Assembly: GCA_902599315.1 (NCBI GenBank)
Contig: CACKEY010000002.1
Location: forward strand, 134,299 to 198,298
Reading direction: 5' to 3'
DNA: 64,000 bases
DNA from: an uncultured SAR86 cluster bacterium
Lineage (GTDB): Bacteria; Pseudomonadota; Gammaproteobacteria; Magnimaribacterales; D2472
The notes below the pieces were generated by a model. That model was not told where the DNA came from and did no database searches. It was given only the letters and a program-made list of their open reading frames with translations. The translations under genes and the position numbers were made by a program. Positions 1,482 through 5,224 of this stretch are shown here, piece by piece. Positions within the stretch are counted from its first letter, which is position 1, and each line of letters opens with the position of its first letter.

Positions 1482-2879
1482 TTAATCCACTGTTACTGCA
1501 ACAAAGAATCTATTATTATTGCGACGCCCTACAATGGCTAATTTATCACCCTCTTCAAATTCCTCTACAAGATCCTCAAATGATTCAGCATCTTCAATTG
1601 TATGCCGCTTACCTTGAGATATAACTTCGGTAATAATATCCCCTCTTGTCAATTTTCCGTAAGCAGGAGATCCATTGTTTACTCTTAAGACTAATACCCC
1701 GCTTTCAGGATCATTTGGTCGAGAATTTTCCTCAGAAAGATCTTCTATCTTAAGACCAAGCGGATCAGACGAAATTTCGGTTTTTGCAGGAATAAATGTT
1801 CTTTCATCAGCGGGTAATTCTCCGAGAGTGAATTTTAAATTTACATTTTTTCCATCACGAATAATTTTTGCATTTGCTTTTGTTTTTGGTTGAATTCTCC
1901 CAACAACATGAGGTAAATCAGAGCCAAATTTAATCTCTTTTCCATTAAACTCGATAATTACATCTCCGGCTTGCAGGCCTGCATCGTCTCCAGACTCGCC
2001 TTTTTCAACATCAGTGATAAGCGCTCCATAAGGTTTTTCCATGCTCAAAGCCTCAGCAAGATCATTATCAACTTCACCAACTCTTACACCAAGGTATCCT
2101 CTAGCAACGCTTCCATCATTAATAATTTGGCTTGCCACTTCCATAGCAACATCTATTGGTATTGCAAAAGCTAAACCTTGATAGCCTCCGCTTCGTGAGT
2201 AAATTTGTGAATTAATTCCAACAACTCTTCCATTTAAATCAAATAATGGGCCACCAGAATTGCCTGGATTAATGGCAACATCAGTTTGAATAAATGGAAC
2301 GTAATTACCAATATTTTGATTTTGTATACTCCGTCCTTTTGCGCTAACAATTCCTGCGGTAACTGAAAAATCAAATGAAAATGGCGATCCAATTGCAACA
2401 ACCCAATCACCTACTTTTAAATTTTCACTATCGCCTATAGAAACCTTTGGCAAATTTTTACCATCAATTTTTAAGACTGCTAAATCTGAAAGAGGATCTA
2501 TACCAATCACTTCCGCAGAAAACTCTCTCCTATCATTTAAAGACACAGTAATTTCCTCAGCTTCATCTATAACGTGAAAGTTTGTTAGCAAGTATCCACC
2601 TTTAAAAATGAATCCGGAGCCATAAGCAACCGCTTCTCTTGTTTCAGGTTGTTGAGGTTGAGGGAAACCTCTTCCTCTGGGGATGCCAAAGAATCTTTCA
2701 AATTCATCAAAACCCCTTAAAGAATTCTGCATTTTTACCTCTTTACGAGAGGTTATATTCACAACAGCGGGAGCTGATGATTCAACCAAATCAGAAATAT
2801 TAGATGGCAAAGCAGCACTAGTGAGGGATGAAAATGCGATAACAAATAAAATAGCAACCTTATTTAGATACAGCTTCAT
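1482..2879 (-). CDS. mucD: Periplasmic serine protease, HtrA family (DegQ/MucD type)
   Basis: This is a 465-residue HtrA-type protease/chaperone that degrades misfolded envelope proteins. Residues 1-22 form a signal peptide (basic start, hydrophobic core, cut near SAALP). The trypsin-like triad is visible: His102 in TNFHVID, Asp132 in SDLAVLKI and Ser208 in GNSGGPLF. Two PDZ domains follow, at roughly residues 255-345 and 370-460. The length fits DegQ/MucD. It follows the anti-sigma gene with a gap of one base, so it belongs to the rpoE operon as mucD does in Pseudomonas, and sigma-E control is likely. Which of DegP, DegQ or MucD is the closest relative cannot be settled by eye; mucD is chosen from context. 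Confidence 0.93.
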   Translation of the reverse strand: MKLYLNKVAILFVIAFSSLTSAALPSNISDLVESSAPAVVNITSRKEVKMQNSLRGFDEFERFFGIPRGRGFPQPQQPETREAVAYGSGFIFKGGYLLTNFHVIDEAEEITVSLNDRREFSAEVIGIDPLSDLAVLKIDGKNLPKVSIGDSENLKVGDWVVAIGSPFSFDFSVTAGIVSAKGRSIQNQNIGNYVPFIQTDVAINPGNSGGPLFDLNGRVVGINSQIYSRSGGYQGLAFAIPIDVAMEVASQIINDGSVARGYLGVRVGEVDNDLAEALSMEKPYGALITDVEKGESGDDAGLQAGDVIIEFNGKEIKFGSDLPHVVGRIQPKTKANAKIIRDGKNVNLKFTLGELPADERTFIPAKTEISSDPLGLKIEDLSEENSRPNDPESGVLVLRVNNGSPAYGKLTRGDIITEVISQGKRHTIEDAESFEDLVEEFEEGDKLAIVGRRNNNRFFVAVTVD

Positions 2880-2880
2880 A

Positions 2881-3573
2881 TTAGTTCCTTTGATAAATTG
2901 ATTGAATCATCTGATCTGCTATTGATGGGGGAATATCTCCGTAAGCAGTCAAGAGCCTGCCATCTTTTAAGGGTATTAAATATATCCAATTATTATTTGC
3001 TTTAAAGTATTTTACATTTTTAATACCTAGTTGTTTATTTTCAAGATGAAAAAATAAATTATTTCTTCCATTTGAATATTGATTAGGATTATTTGGACTT
3101 ACAGAAAAGCCAACTGGAATCCAATTTTTAGAAAGCTGTTGGGATTTATTTGATTGATTCGATTGCATTATTTGAATCATGTGCTCCATTATATTTTGAT
3201 CAGCATTAAGCAATTGAATTTTAGCTTGATCACTTGAAATTGCAGAAGATAGCCGAAATGAAGTCTCCTTATCAACCTTAAATCTGTCATCATCAAACTG
3301 ATATAAAACAATTAGAGTAAGCAAAACTGTTGCAGCTGCTGTTACTAAATTAGTAAATAGTGGATTAAGTTTTCTGTAATAATTTTGAAGGTATGTGATT
3401 TTTGATTTTTGCTGCTCAGAATGCCTTTGCATCAATTCAGAAATCAATCCAAATTTATAAAAGGCATTTCTCATGCTCTCATCGGAATCCATCTTCTTTA
3501 TAATTTCTTGCATTTCATTTTGTGACAACTCGCCGTCATACAATGCAGACATTTTTTCTAAATTTTTATCCAT
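2881..3573 (-). CDS. rseA: Anti-sigma-E factor RseA/MucA-like, with RseB-like periplasmic domain
   Basis: This 230-residue membrane protein probably holds sigma-E inactive. Residues 1-60 resemble the RseA cytoplasmic domain (LSALYDGEL-type start, acidic, helical). A single membrane segment lies at about 73-92, preceded by basic residues, giving a cytoplasmic N-terminus and periplasmic C-terminus. The periplasmic part has a linker (about 95-148) and then residues 150-228 that resemble the C-terminal domain of RseB/MucB: NWIPVGF, then QYSNGRNNLFF, then GDIPPSIADQMIQSI, compared with the WLPxGF, YSDGLxxFSV and GELPPxxAxRI blocks of RseB. No separate rseB or rseC is present. It overlaps the end of rpoE by 8 nt, so the two are translationally coupled. 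The RseA role is strongly supported by position; the RseB-like domain is an inference from motifs. Confidence 0.82.
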   Translation of the reverse strand: MDKNLEKMSALYDGELSQNEMQEIIKKMDSDESMRNAFYKFGLISELMQRHSEQQKSKITYLQNYYRKLNPLFTNLVTAAATVLLTLIVLYQFDDDRFKVDKETSFRLSSAISSDQAKIQLLNADQNIMEHMIQIMQSNQSNKSQQLSKNWIPVGFSVSPNNPNQYSNGRNNLFFHLENKQLGIKNVKYFKANNNWIYLIPLKDGRLLTAYGDIPPSIADQMIQSIYQRN

Positions 3574-4135
3574 TTAAAATATTCTCCTGATTCATAAATT
3601 CTAGTATTAGTTGCCTTGCTCTAAAAATTCTTGATCTTACTGTACCGATTGGACAATTGAGTATCTTGGCTATTTCATCATATGTTCTGCCCTCTATCTC
3701 CCTTAATGTAAAAGCAGTTTTTGTATCCTCATCAAGGCTTTGGATGAATTGCATCATTTTAATTTCAGACTCAGCTGCGATTAATTCTGTTTCAGGAGAT
3801 CGATATTCTGGAAAATCATACTGATCTTGATCTAAGCTTTCTGTAAACTTTGAATTTTTGGAAAATCTACTTGCAAAATCATTCTTTGCTAAATTAATTC
3901 CTATTCTGTAAATCCATGTAAATAGAGAGCTTTCACCTTTAAAAGTATTGATTTTCTGCCAGACTTTAATAAATGTTTTTTGACATAATTCTTCAGCATG
4001 ATCCTTTGACTTAGTATATCCAGTCAAAACTGACATAAGTTTAGGAGTATATTTCAATACCAAAGCCTCAAAGGCCATTTCATTTCCAGCTTTTATTTCA
4101 TTAATTAACATTTCATCTCCTTTACTAACTCCCAT
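3566..4135 (-). CDS. rpoE: RNA polymerase sigma-E factor (ECF family)
   Basis: This is the envelope-stress sigma factor. Region 2 shows FxGESSLFTWIYRIGINLAKND, with the core-binding and -10 residues, and region 4 shows LREIEGRTYDEIAKILNCPIGTVRSRIFRAR, the -35-binding helix-turn-helix typical of RpoE/AlgU. An open frame extends to a TTG at 4159, but the ATG at 4135 has GAGG six bases upstream and gives 189 residues, aligning start-to-start with E. coli RpoE (191). A second ATG at 4111 has an even better AAAGGAG and could be used if transcription begins close to 4146. The gene precedes and overlaps the anti-sigma gene, and the protease and lepA follow. Confidence 0.95.
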   Translation of the reverse strand: MGVSKGDEMLINEIKAGNEMAFEALVLKYTPKLMSVLTGYTKSKDHAEELCQKTFIKVWQKINTFKGESSLFTWIYRIGINLAKNDFASRFSKNSKFTESLDQDQYDFPEYRSPETELIAAESEIKMMQFIQSLDEDTKTAFTLREIEGRTYDEIAKILNCPIGTVRSRIFRARQLILEFMNQENILNG

Positions 4136-4151
4136 CAGATTCCTCACGAGC

Positions 4152-4179
4152 TTTGACAAAGAGAAAATCGAATAGTTTC
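4152..4179 (-). promoter_or_regulatory. Possible sigma-E-type autoregulatory promoter of rpoE
   Basis: On the minus strand GAAACT (4179-4174) is followed after 17 nt by TCAAA (4156-4152). This resembles the sigma-E pattern GGAACTT, 16-17 nt, TCAAA/TCTGA and sits directly in front of rpoE, where RpoE autoregulation is common. The match to the -35 is imperfect, so this is tentative. Confidence 0.33.
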
Positions 4180-4426
4180 ACTTGTGTATAAAGTTTTTTA
4201 AATTATTTAAGATAAATTTTTCTTTATCAGGGCTATTAAGAGACTGATTTTTAAAAATAAAATCATATAGGGGTTGATCATCAAGATCTAGAATACTGTT
4301 AAACATCTCAAAATCTTCTTTTGAAAGAGATTCCAAATTATTTTCACTGTATCTCCTAAATAAAAGATCCAGCTCTCTGAGCCCTCTTCTGCACTTCCAT
4401 TTTGTTTTATTTATTTCTGTATTCAT
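4178..4426 (-). CDS. sdhE: Succinate dehydrogenase flavinylation factor SdhE
   Basis: SdhE (YgfY/Sdh5) helps attach FAD covalently to the SdhA subunit. This 82-residue protein has the diagnostic CRRGLRELDLLFRRY at residues 12-26, containing the RGxxE motif needed for flavinylation, in an all-helical small protein of the expected length. It lies upstream of rpoE on the same strand and is divergent from ygfZ with only 45 bp between them, an arrangement also seen near sdhE in other gammaproteobacteria. Its client SdhA is encoded at the far right of this window. Confidence 0.92.
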   Translation of the reverse strand: MNTEINKTKWKCRRGLRELDLLFRRYSENNLESLSKEDFEMFNSILDLDDQPLYDFIFKNQSLNSPDKEKFILNNLKNFIHK

Positions 4427-4471: not shown

Positions 4472-5224
4472 TTGTTAAATTCTGAGCTATTAAAATTCGG
4501 AGCCGTTAATCTTGATAACGTAACTGTAATTCATCTAGATGGTGATTTTGACTCTGTCTTAACACTTTTACAAGGACAGGTAACATCTGATTGCACTCAA
4601 ATAACTAACCAATTTGGCCAGATATCATCATTATGTGATGAAAAAGGGTTTGTTCTATGTAATTTTGAAATTATTTTCGACAAAAATAGATGGCTAATAA
4701 TTATCGAGAAATCTTCAAAAGGTATTTTCTTGGACGAAATAAGTAAATTTTTACCATTTTACAAAGTTTCAGCAGTACTCCTTGATTTGAAAGTTACTGG
4801 AGTTACAAGAAATAAAGATGAAAATATACTTTCAGATGAGCACATCATTTTTCAGTCAGATGAAGCATTATTATCTTTAATCATTGCAAATGACAAAAAA
4901 ATTAAGAATGTTCTTGAGCTGATTGATTGGGCTTTTAATAGAAAGCTTTTAGGAGATCATCAAATTAACTTCAATGAAAAAGGAAAATATAGGCCGCATG
5001 AACTTGGTCAGCACATTACAAGGGTGAGTTTTAAGAAAGGATGTTTTAAGGGTCAAGAGATCATTGCTCGTATGGAGTATCTTGGTAAATTGAAAAAAGA
5101 AACAAGGTTGATTGTTTATTCAAAAAAAGAGGAAGTATCAGAATTTACAATTATTGGAAAAACATACCAAGATAAAGATAAGTTTTTTTCATCATGTCTT
5201 GGCAATATAAATAGTTTTATATAG
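4472..5224 (+). CDS. ygfZ: Folate-binding protein YgfZ (Fe-S cluster assembly/repair)
   Basis: YgfZ is a tetrahydrofolate-binding relative of GcvT that supports assembly or repair of some Fe-S enzymes. The hallmark KGCxxGQE appears as KKGCFKGQEI at residues 188-197, with the key Cys at 191. The N-terminal part has the family pattern LQGQVTSD (33-40) and DEKGFVLCNF. At 250 residues it is shorter than the E. coli protein (326), mainly in the C-terminal beta-barrel region. The start is a TTG at 4472 with no clear ribosome-binding site and no nearby upstream ATG, so the N-terminus is the least certain part. It is divergent from sdhE. Confidence 0.88.
   Translation: MLNSELLKFGAVNLDNVTVIHLDGDFDSVLTLLQGQVTSDCTQITNQFGQISSLCDEKGFVLCNFEIIFDKNRWLIIIEKSSKGIFLDEISKFLPFYKVSAVLLDLKVTGVTRNKDENILSDEHIIFQSDEALLSLIIANDKKIKNVLELIDWAFNRKLLGDHQINFNEKGKYRPHELGQHITRVSFKKGCFKGQEIIARMEYLGKLKKETRLIVYSKKEEVSEFTIIGKTYQDKDKFFSSCLGNINSFI

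Follow-up and report, generated by a model that had tools for sequence, protein, structure and literature searches.

A predicted RseB/MucB-type C-terminal domain within the RseA-type anti-sigma factor of SAR86 bacteria

The window analysed here is a 64,000-nucleotide stretch of DNA from an uncultured SAR86 cluster bacterium. Four genes of its minus strand form an apparent sigma-E operon, sdhE-rpoE-rseA-mucD:

4178–4426, minus strand: sdhE, first gene of the apparent operon (PF03937, E=2.6e-16)
3566–4159, minus strand: rpoE, ECF sigma factor, sigma-E (TIGR02939, E=3.1e-47; Sigma70_r2 and r4_2)
2881–3573, minus strand: rseA, single-chain RseA with a predicted RseB-type C-domain, 230 residues (open reading frame with ATG start; RseA_N over its cut-off; AF2, Foldseek and VIA)
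1482–2879, minus strand: mucD/degP-type protease with two PDZ stretches (Trypsin_2, E=1.2e-34; PDZ_2 twice)

TIGR02939 is the best NCBIfam model for rpoE, with a score under its equivalog cut-off. A ygfZ-like gene, named from sequence and with no clear Pfam family, is found at 4472 on the opposite strand. The rseA reading frame overlaps the 3' end of rpoE by eight bases and mucD starts one base past the rseA stop codon, so that there is no room for rseB or rseC between rpoE and mucD; the first-pass annotation, which had noted neither gene between rseA and mucD, was correct on this point. The order sdhE-rpoE-rseA-mucD was observed in 57 of 59 named loci, the remaining two having no sdhE-rpoE distance. 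In each of the 59 named loci, rseA is flanked on the same strand by an rpoE match no more than 200 bases away and by a mucD match no more than 260 bases away; a cognate rpoE thus adjoins rseA there and in the window, as is usual for RseA and MucA. One loose pattern for a sigma-E promoter was tried upstream of rpoE and gave a single chance-like match. No rseA homologues were found in phages (window protein as query) or plasmids (relative L050 as query).

The gene is common in the family to which the window belongs, being present in 91 of 107 genomes and nine of ten genera, and in 18 of the 19 genomes with completeness of at least 90% and contamination of at most 5%. Alignment A1 was built from 38 of 73 proteins kept after an 80% identity redundancy filter, and alignment A3 from 39 of 59 after a 90% filter; both counts are those before removal of protein L156, after which the window row was substituted for L002 or added. 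A3 and A5 omit L156, as its translation does not start from ATG. The following parts of the 230-residue protein are distinguished:

3418–3573, minus strand: cytoplasmic anti-sigma domain RseA_N, residues 1–52 (PF03872, E=2.3e-6; HHalign; VIA)
3295–3360, minus strand: single predicted transmembrane segment, approximately residues 72–93 (Kyte-Doolittle maximum 2.2 from residue 72; AF2 helix 72–93, low pLDDT)
3220–3243, minus strand: motif A-[ILVM]-[NSE]-S-x-[EQ]-A-[KQR], residues 111–118, candidate site-1 (DegS) cleavage region (conservation in A3)
3160–3231, minus strand: periplasmic helix region, residues 115–138, with H131, candidate remnant of RseA alpha-I (weak local HH match)
2884–3144, minus strand: predicted RseB/MucB-type C-terminal domain, residues 144–230 (first 14 Foldseek matches; VIA Z 9.0; HHalign P=8.4e-6 and 2e-7)

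The reading frame at 2881–3573 encodes an RseA-type anti-sigma factor. RseA_N (PF03872) scores 28.5 bits over residues 6–55, above its curated cut-off of 24, and is matched at E<=10 by 37 of 38 family members. The anti-sigma domain aligns with 34 RseAs of the class (HHalign P=1.9e-12), and the modelled cytoplasmic part resembles MucAcyto (8z6g and 6in7, VIA Z 6.0 and 5.8) and RsiW (5wuq, VIA Z 6.9, rmsd 5.5). S9 and D13 are invariant columns in A1, and D13 corresponds to D11 of E. coli RseA in the profile-PDB alignment, a residue whose replacement by histidine is reported to inactivate RseA (PMC7406223). The hydrophobicity profile has one peak (19-residue window from residue 72, mean 2.2) with no separate second window above 1.6. 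One membrane segment therefore divides a cytoplasmic from a periplasmic part, as in RseA and MucA, and its place ahead of the RseB-like block is that given by the first-pass annotation.

The sequence blocks that had drawn attention to the periplasmic part are located at residues 150–156 (NWIPVGF), 166–175 (YSNGRNNLFF) and 212–226 (GDIPPSIADQMIQSI). Their resemblance to the C-domain of RseB/MucB is more than chance. When 41 RseB reading frames and 439 other frames of the same loci were scored with a 38-sequence C-domain profile, the RseBs mostly outscored the others (AUC 0.975, p ~1e-29), the p-value not being literal since the RseBs are mutually related and two of the 41 are repeats of the same genomes (39 genomes); the best single RseB reached only E=0.0094. 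Profile-profile alignment of the C-domain with RseB by HHalign is colinear over 84 columns (P=8.4e-6, HH probability 65%) and strengthens when the sister family is included (P=2e-7, probability 94%); in the column-shuffle control of the latter, none of 200 shuffles reached the score of 47.9, with a shuffle maximum of 19.2. The full-length alignment gives a weaker match to RseB (P=0.001, probability 8.5%).

Single-sequence and Pfam searches gave weaker results. The window protein alone has no Pfam match to RseB at E<=1 and nothing significant beyond RseA_N, and phmmer against the PDB returned two chance-like chains only (best E=0.014). The A1 full-alignment profile searched against PDB sequences found the cytoplasmic domains of MucA and RseA and did not find RseB. 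The sole match of the RseB C-domain model PF17188 over the window's own genome is at 2896–2964, inside rseA (E=2.4, 8.8 bits), and the model also falls inside the homologous rseA of two relatives, G065 (E=0.0022) and G017 (E=0.07). Its curated cut-off of 30.1 bits is missed throughout, the family best being 18.1 bits (G065). At E<=1, 103 of 106 family genomes have no PF17188 match, and the three family matches lie in frames of 87, 237 and 245 residues, with no long frame among them. The 87-residue frame is a weak match (E=0.2) at L074 (G078:C6:62922-62996), in a genome where rseA was not found.

The AF2 model, built from 39 sequences, has blocks of pLDDT 71–80 over residues 151–230, and in this model the region adopts the RseB C-domain fold. 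In a Foldseek search of the PDB with the full model, the first 14 matches are all RseB/MucB (probability 0.82–1.00; best E=9.6e-4, probability 1.00), and RseB/MucB again fill the first 14 rows when the periplasmic part is modelled alone (the short model; best E=2.4e-3). The matches are not strong as such: E<=0.001 is reached by one chain with the full model and by none with the short model, and TM-scores by the full query are 0.22–0.29. VIA superposes the domain on RseB residues 221–314 with a Z of 9.0 (range 8.1–9.0 over RseB chains); for MucB, Z is 7.5–7.7 to 6jau and 6in9, but 5.0 to apo MucB 6in8, and the best unrelated match to the C-domain is 1vr8 with Z 5.8. It is thus well supported, from predicted models, that residues ~144–230 carry the RseB/MucB C-domain fold. 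The profile comparison and the comparison with the RseB C-domain structure that the first-pass annotation had proposed were both carried out, and each returned RseB, so that its likening of the quoted blocks to the RseB/MucB C-domain is upheld by a profile match beyond chance and by structure.

A search for a separate rseB had also been proposed, and none was found. The RseB N-domain model PF03888 failed to match the own genome even at E<=10, gave nothing at E<=0.1 in 106 family genomes, of which 19 are 90% complete or better, and stayed below its cut-off throughout 199 genomes of the order. Since the own genome is only 89.8% complete, the evidence that rseB is absent comes chiefly from the survey of 106 genomes and from synteny. 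Below the cut-off, PF03888 matches at E<=0.01 occur in six of the 199 order genomes, all of them in another family, f142. The identified one, L122, was rejected as an RseB because it is a LolA_like protein (PF17131, E=3.4e-60) and is not beside rpoE; L123 was likewise set aside, as it resembles L122 by eye. These LolA_like-type genes (L122, 3232–4020; L123, 3198–3980) adjoin an unnamed protein of 388–422 residues and are not near rpoE. For RseC (PF04246), no match was present in the own genome at E<=0.01; matches in the order (36 of 202 genomes at E<=0.01) are weak, with one over the cut-off in a 250-residue frame, and were not accepted as rseC.

Elsewhere in the class, the RseB C-domain model was found in 84 of 141 genomes at E<=0.001 and, in a second survey, in 235 of 370 over the cut-off. 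The frames among the matches listed in the 141-genome survey have at least 318 residues, except for one of 244 residues in G199 (see below), and among the genomes listed in the 370-genome survey are five of the order, all without a match. The long RseB frames of the class reach 575 residues; the one case checked for fusion, L112, was rejected as an RseA-RseB fusion, as its rseA is a separate overlapping reading frame and the long frame is an upstream extension (by eye). The SAR86 protein itself is not an RseB, as its chain starts with RseA_N and no separate protein bearing PF03888 accompanies it.

The same architecture may extend, in part, to other families of the order. In 18 of 20 order loci that have both rpoE and mucD matches, these are 717–885 bases apart, which leaves room for one gene of rseA size. 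In the sister family f2, the match reaches the C-terminal end in 11 of 19 matching genomes. The C-domain of six aligned f2 proteins is homologous to that of SAR86 (P=9e-10), and its match to RseB is weaker (P=1e-4 for the full-length alignment, 0.0023 for the C-part alone); L221 was left out of this alignment because its contig ends within the gene. Families f142 (L226–L232, L235, L236, L238 and L240) and f143 (L233–L234) have RseA-like proteins of similar length, ~230 residues. The f142 tail matches the SAR86 C-domain marginally (P=4e-4 over 30 columns), and neither the f142 nor the f143 tail matches RseB. The f142 C-terminal tail has the appearance of an eroded domain (GKTFxVSLSP...GxYxISVSGNISxEKKSQIL). 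In ten of 11 f142 loci, sdhE and rpoE, which are neighbours in the window, are separated by 1,018–1,101 bases, and an extra gene may intervene.

A comparable protein was encountered once outside the order. Genome G199 of the class encodes, after rpoE and with rseC behind it (E=1.9e-16), a 241-residue RseA-like protein (L111, 3638–4363) with a weak RseA_N match (E=0.01, below the cut-off). Its C-part matches RseB_C (HH P=3.8e-5 over 52 columns; Pfam E=0.0022, below the cut-off). Like SAR86 RseA, it follows rpoE and combines an RseA_N-like start with an RseB-type C-part; unlike SAR86, rseC is retained, and the C-part resembles RseB more closely than it does the SAR86 domain (P=0.01 to the latter). 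This protein may be an independent fusion or an intermediate.

The segment between the membrane and the C-domain contains two features of interest. At residues 111–118, A111, S114 and A117 are identical in 39 of 39 A3 rows and position 112 is I, L, V or M in all 39; the motif hardly varies within the family, and sister families of the order show a recognisable form of it. From this pattern, the bond between I112 and S113, within A111-I112-S113-S114, is the best candidate for the site-1 cut. The second feature is the helix region at residues 115–138, which is helical in both AF2 models at low to moderate confidence; pLDDT of the linker is itself low to moderate, with blocks of 30–57 for residues 101–150 in the full model and 51–68 for residues 97–146 in the short model. 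The best local HH match of the periplasmic segment is the RseA motif LNxYLVNH (RLNxYLVNH), which is weak (10 columns, P=0.032); none of 200 shuffles reached its score of 12.5, by a small margin (maximum 11.8). A 42-residue RseA tail had no match against the PDB.

HHalign pairs H131, which is H in 34 and Y in five of the 39 A3 rows, with the histidine of the RseA motif, and H170 of MucA lands on the same histidine (89-residue PDB chain numbered 106–194; alignment E=0.033). According to PMC7400510, W158, R162 and H170 of MucA are required for MucB binding; of these, SAR86 broadly retains only the histidine position, with R or K at that of the arginine in 15 of 39 rows and tryptophan in none of the 39. 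The pattern [RK]x3[YF][LIVM]xxH, which was chosen after the data had been seen, occurs in 24 of 34 class RseAs. Of 91 distinct SAR86 proteins 14 contain it, where shuffled sequences would give 0.1, an excess inflated by shared ancestry. The class RseAs were obtained by dropping seven of 41 putative RseA neighbours (too short, no motif-like tail, or sigma-factor reading frames), and the count of 24 of 34 is somewhat favoured by this filter, which partly used the tail. PMC7400510 also describes alpha-I of MucA/RseA, bound to the C-domain of MucB/RseB, as a universal coupling determinant, reports that the MucB cavity binds and senses lipid A, and places RseA residues 142–151, including the DegS site, in a buried position in RseA/RseB. 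Although weak, the alpha-I-like motif paired with H131 favours a possible intramolecular RseA:RseB contact from which the lipid-sensing half would have been lost.

E. coli RseA and P. aeruginosa MucA (PF03872) likewise have an N-terminal anti-sigma domain, one membrane segment, an adjoining rpoE or algU and the D11 equivalent; in these classical proteins the periplasmic tail holds alpha-I, which is bound by RseB/MucB, whereas the SAR86 chain ends in a predicted folded RseB-type domain. With the RseB/MucB C-domain (PF17188), the SAR86 domain shares the fold (VIA Z up to 9.0), a colinear profile and the blocks W-P-GF, YSNG/YSDG and GxxPP; unlike RseB/MucB, it sits in a membrane-anchored anti-sigma chain without PF03888, and below the Pfam cut-off. 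In other Gammaproteobacteria, the grip of the RseB C-domain on RseA is between two proteins. SsdC/YdcC of B. subtilis (PMC7769602) similarly has an RseB-type extracellular part on its own membrane segment, and differs in that its RseB-like region spans residues 26–338 and that it has a role in spore shape. No published account of an RseA with a fused RseB C-domain, or of SAR86 RseA, was found in the open-licence literature.

The interpretation of the first-pass annotation, that an RseA-RseB pair has been reduced to one chain with loss of the sensing domain, is supported for domain content and for the absent RseB N-domain; descent from a lost rseB is unproven, as the Pfam score is nearer to DUF4367 (PF14285) than to MucB_RseB_C. 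DUF4367 is found at the C-terminal end of many Firmicutes anti-sigma-like proteins, so that its usual lineage and context are other than those seen here. It is the best Pfam sequence match of the C-domain in 22 of 38 members (best E=4.9e-4), compared with two of 38 for MucB_RseB_C (best E=0.007). No member is over either Pfam cut-off, the best DUF4367 score being 21.0 bits against 22.1 (L050, residues 148–228), and the window protein is absent from the DUF4367 matches listed. The match reaches the end of the profile, or nearly so, in the four members listed. The C-domain could accordingly be of DUF4367 type, from a sister family sharing the fold, and this RseA lineage may have acquired it or have had it all along; the one-chain design would then owe nothing to an RseA-RseB pair, and a periplasmic cap would still be possible. 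This origin is also favoured by the rarity of DUF4367 matches among true RseBs (one of 30, E=0.16), but a sister-family protein, L223, whose family has the homologous C-domain, matches MucB_RseB_C only (E=0.025), the RseB match improves once that family is included, and the gene occupies the rpoE-rseA-(rseB)-mucD place in genomes where rseB was not found. RseB/MucB also come first among solved structures, in a library that may hold no DUF4367. We consider the DUF4367 origin the less likely one, and a fusion from a former rseB likely. The DUF4367 match of the C-domain, close to its cut-off and better than that of MucB_RseB_C, together with the one among true RseBs, hints at a relation between DUF4367 and the RseB C-domain. 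Nothing on DUF4367 was found in the open-licence literature.

The C-domain might instead be a relic that gates nothing, stabilising the periplasmic end or binding another ligand while control is left to DegS and RseP. The half of the RseB cleft contributed by the N-domain is absent, RseB is dispensable in E. coli, the f142 and f143 tails are eroded or unrecognisable, and across genera (25 rows) residues 119–141 of the linker helix have only 9% identity to the window. Against this, the C-domain is as conserved across genera as the anti-sigma domain (34% and 33%), and within the genus (13 rows) the mean identity of the C-domain and the preceding helix (86% and 85%) exceeds that of the anti-sigma domain (61%); a relic is considered about as likely as the DUF4367 origin. 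A full but divergent RseB elsewhere in the genome, with the rseA C-domain as an extra copy, is very unlikely: profiles can miss fast-evolving lipoproteins, PF17188 mostly misses even the SAR86 C-domain and the own genome is incomplete, but PF03888 is absent from every family genome surveyed, its matches in the order lie in another family where the identified one is LolA_like, and the family PF17188 matches are confined to the three frames of at most 245 residues. Chance resemblance of a few motifs, to which only the lack of a significant Pfam match to RseB in the window sequence alone could be credited, is hardly credible given the rank test, the shuffles and the structure matches.

The proteases needed for release of the sigma factor appear to be present. 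The own genome encodes an RseP homologue (E=2.2e-95, over the cut-off) and a DegS-like protease of 334 residues that has a single PDZ and, at its N-terminus, a short hydrophobic stretch; the latter name rests on size, the single PDZ and the N-terminus, as the protein scores 217.5 bits with the DegS model, below the curated cut-off, and the MucD of the window scores higher (236.5). In the proposed switch, the N-domain of SAR86 RseA would hold RpoE at the membrane, and the RseB-type C-domain would fold back on the linker helix in cis and cover the site-1 cleavage region. Misfolded outer-membrane proteins would activate the DegS-like protease, leading to a cut in the linker; RseP would then cut within the membrane, freeing RpoE and turning on mucD and other genes. 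As the lipid-binding N-domain of RseB is missing, the LPS/lipid input would be lost and the unfolded-OMP input kept. In RseB, the N-domain helps to form the pocket in which the cleavage site is buried; the SAR86 protein lacks that domain, and this counts against the proposal. Cis-inhibition is plausible; how the C-domain folds back, where the linker is cut and that lipid sensing has gone are all inferred, as is the fusion from a former rseB. On balance, the reading that is somewhat favoured is a cis RseA:RseB-CTD switch in which the OMP/DegS input is kept and the lipid/LPS input has been lost.

The sigma-E system of E. coli is regarded as requiring two signals, unfolded porins together with off-pathway LPS, and SAR86 ranks among the most abundant groups of bacteria in surface seawater. 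Tentatively, at a little short of an even chance, this large ocean group may use a one-protein RseA-RseB switch, in which the binding half of RseB was captured in cis and the LPS-sensing half discarded, giving a single-input, lipid-blind sigma-E; the arrangement would go back to a common ancestor of at least two families in the order and be eroded in others, with the G199 protein as an independent fusion or an intermediate. RseB C-domains and anti-sigma factors with a similar domain in cis may thus be linked in evolution. If true, structural and protease studies would gain a naturally single-chain RseA:RseB-CTD construct, and SAR86 would serve as a natural experiment on a sigma-E system stripped of its LPS-sensing module, with the remainder held in one chain.
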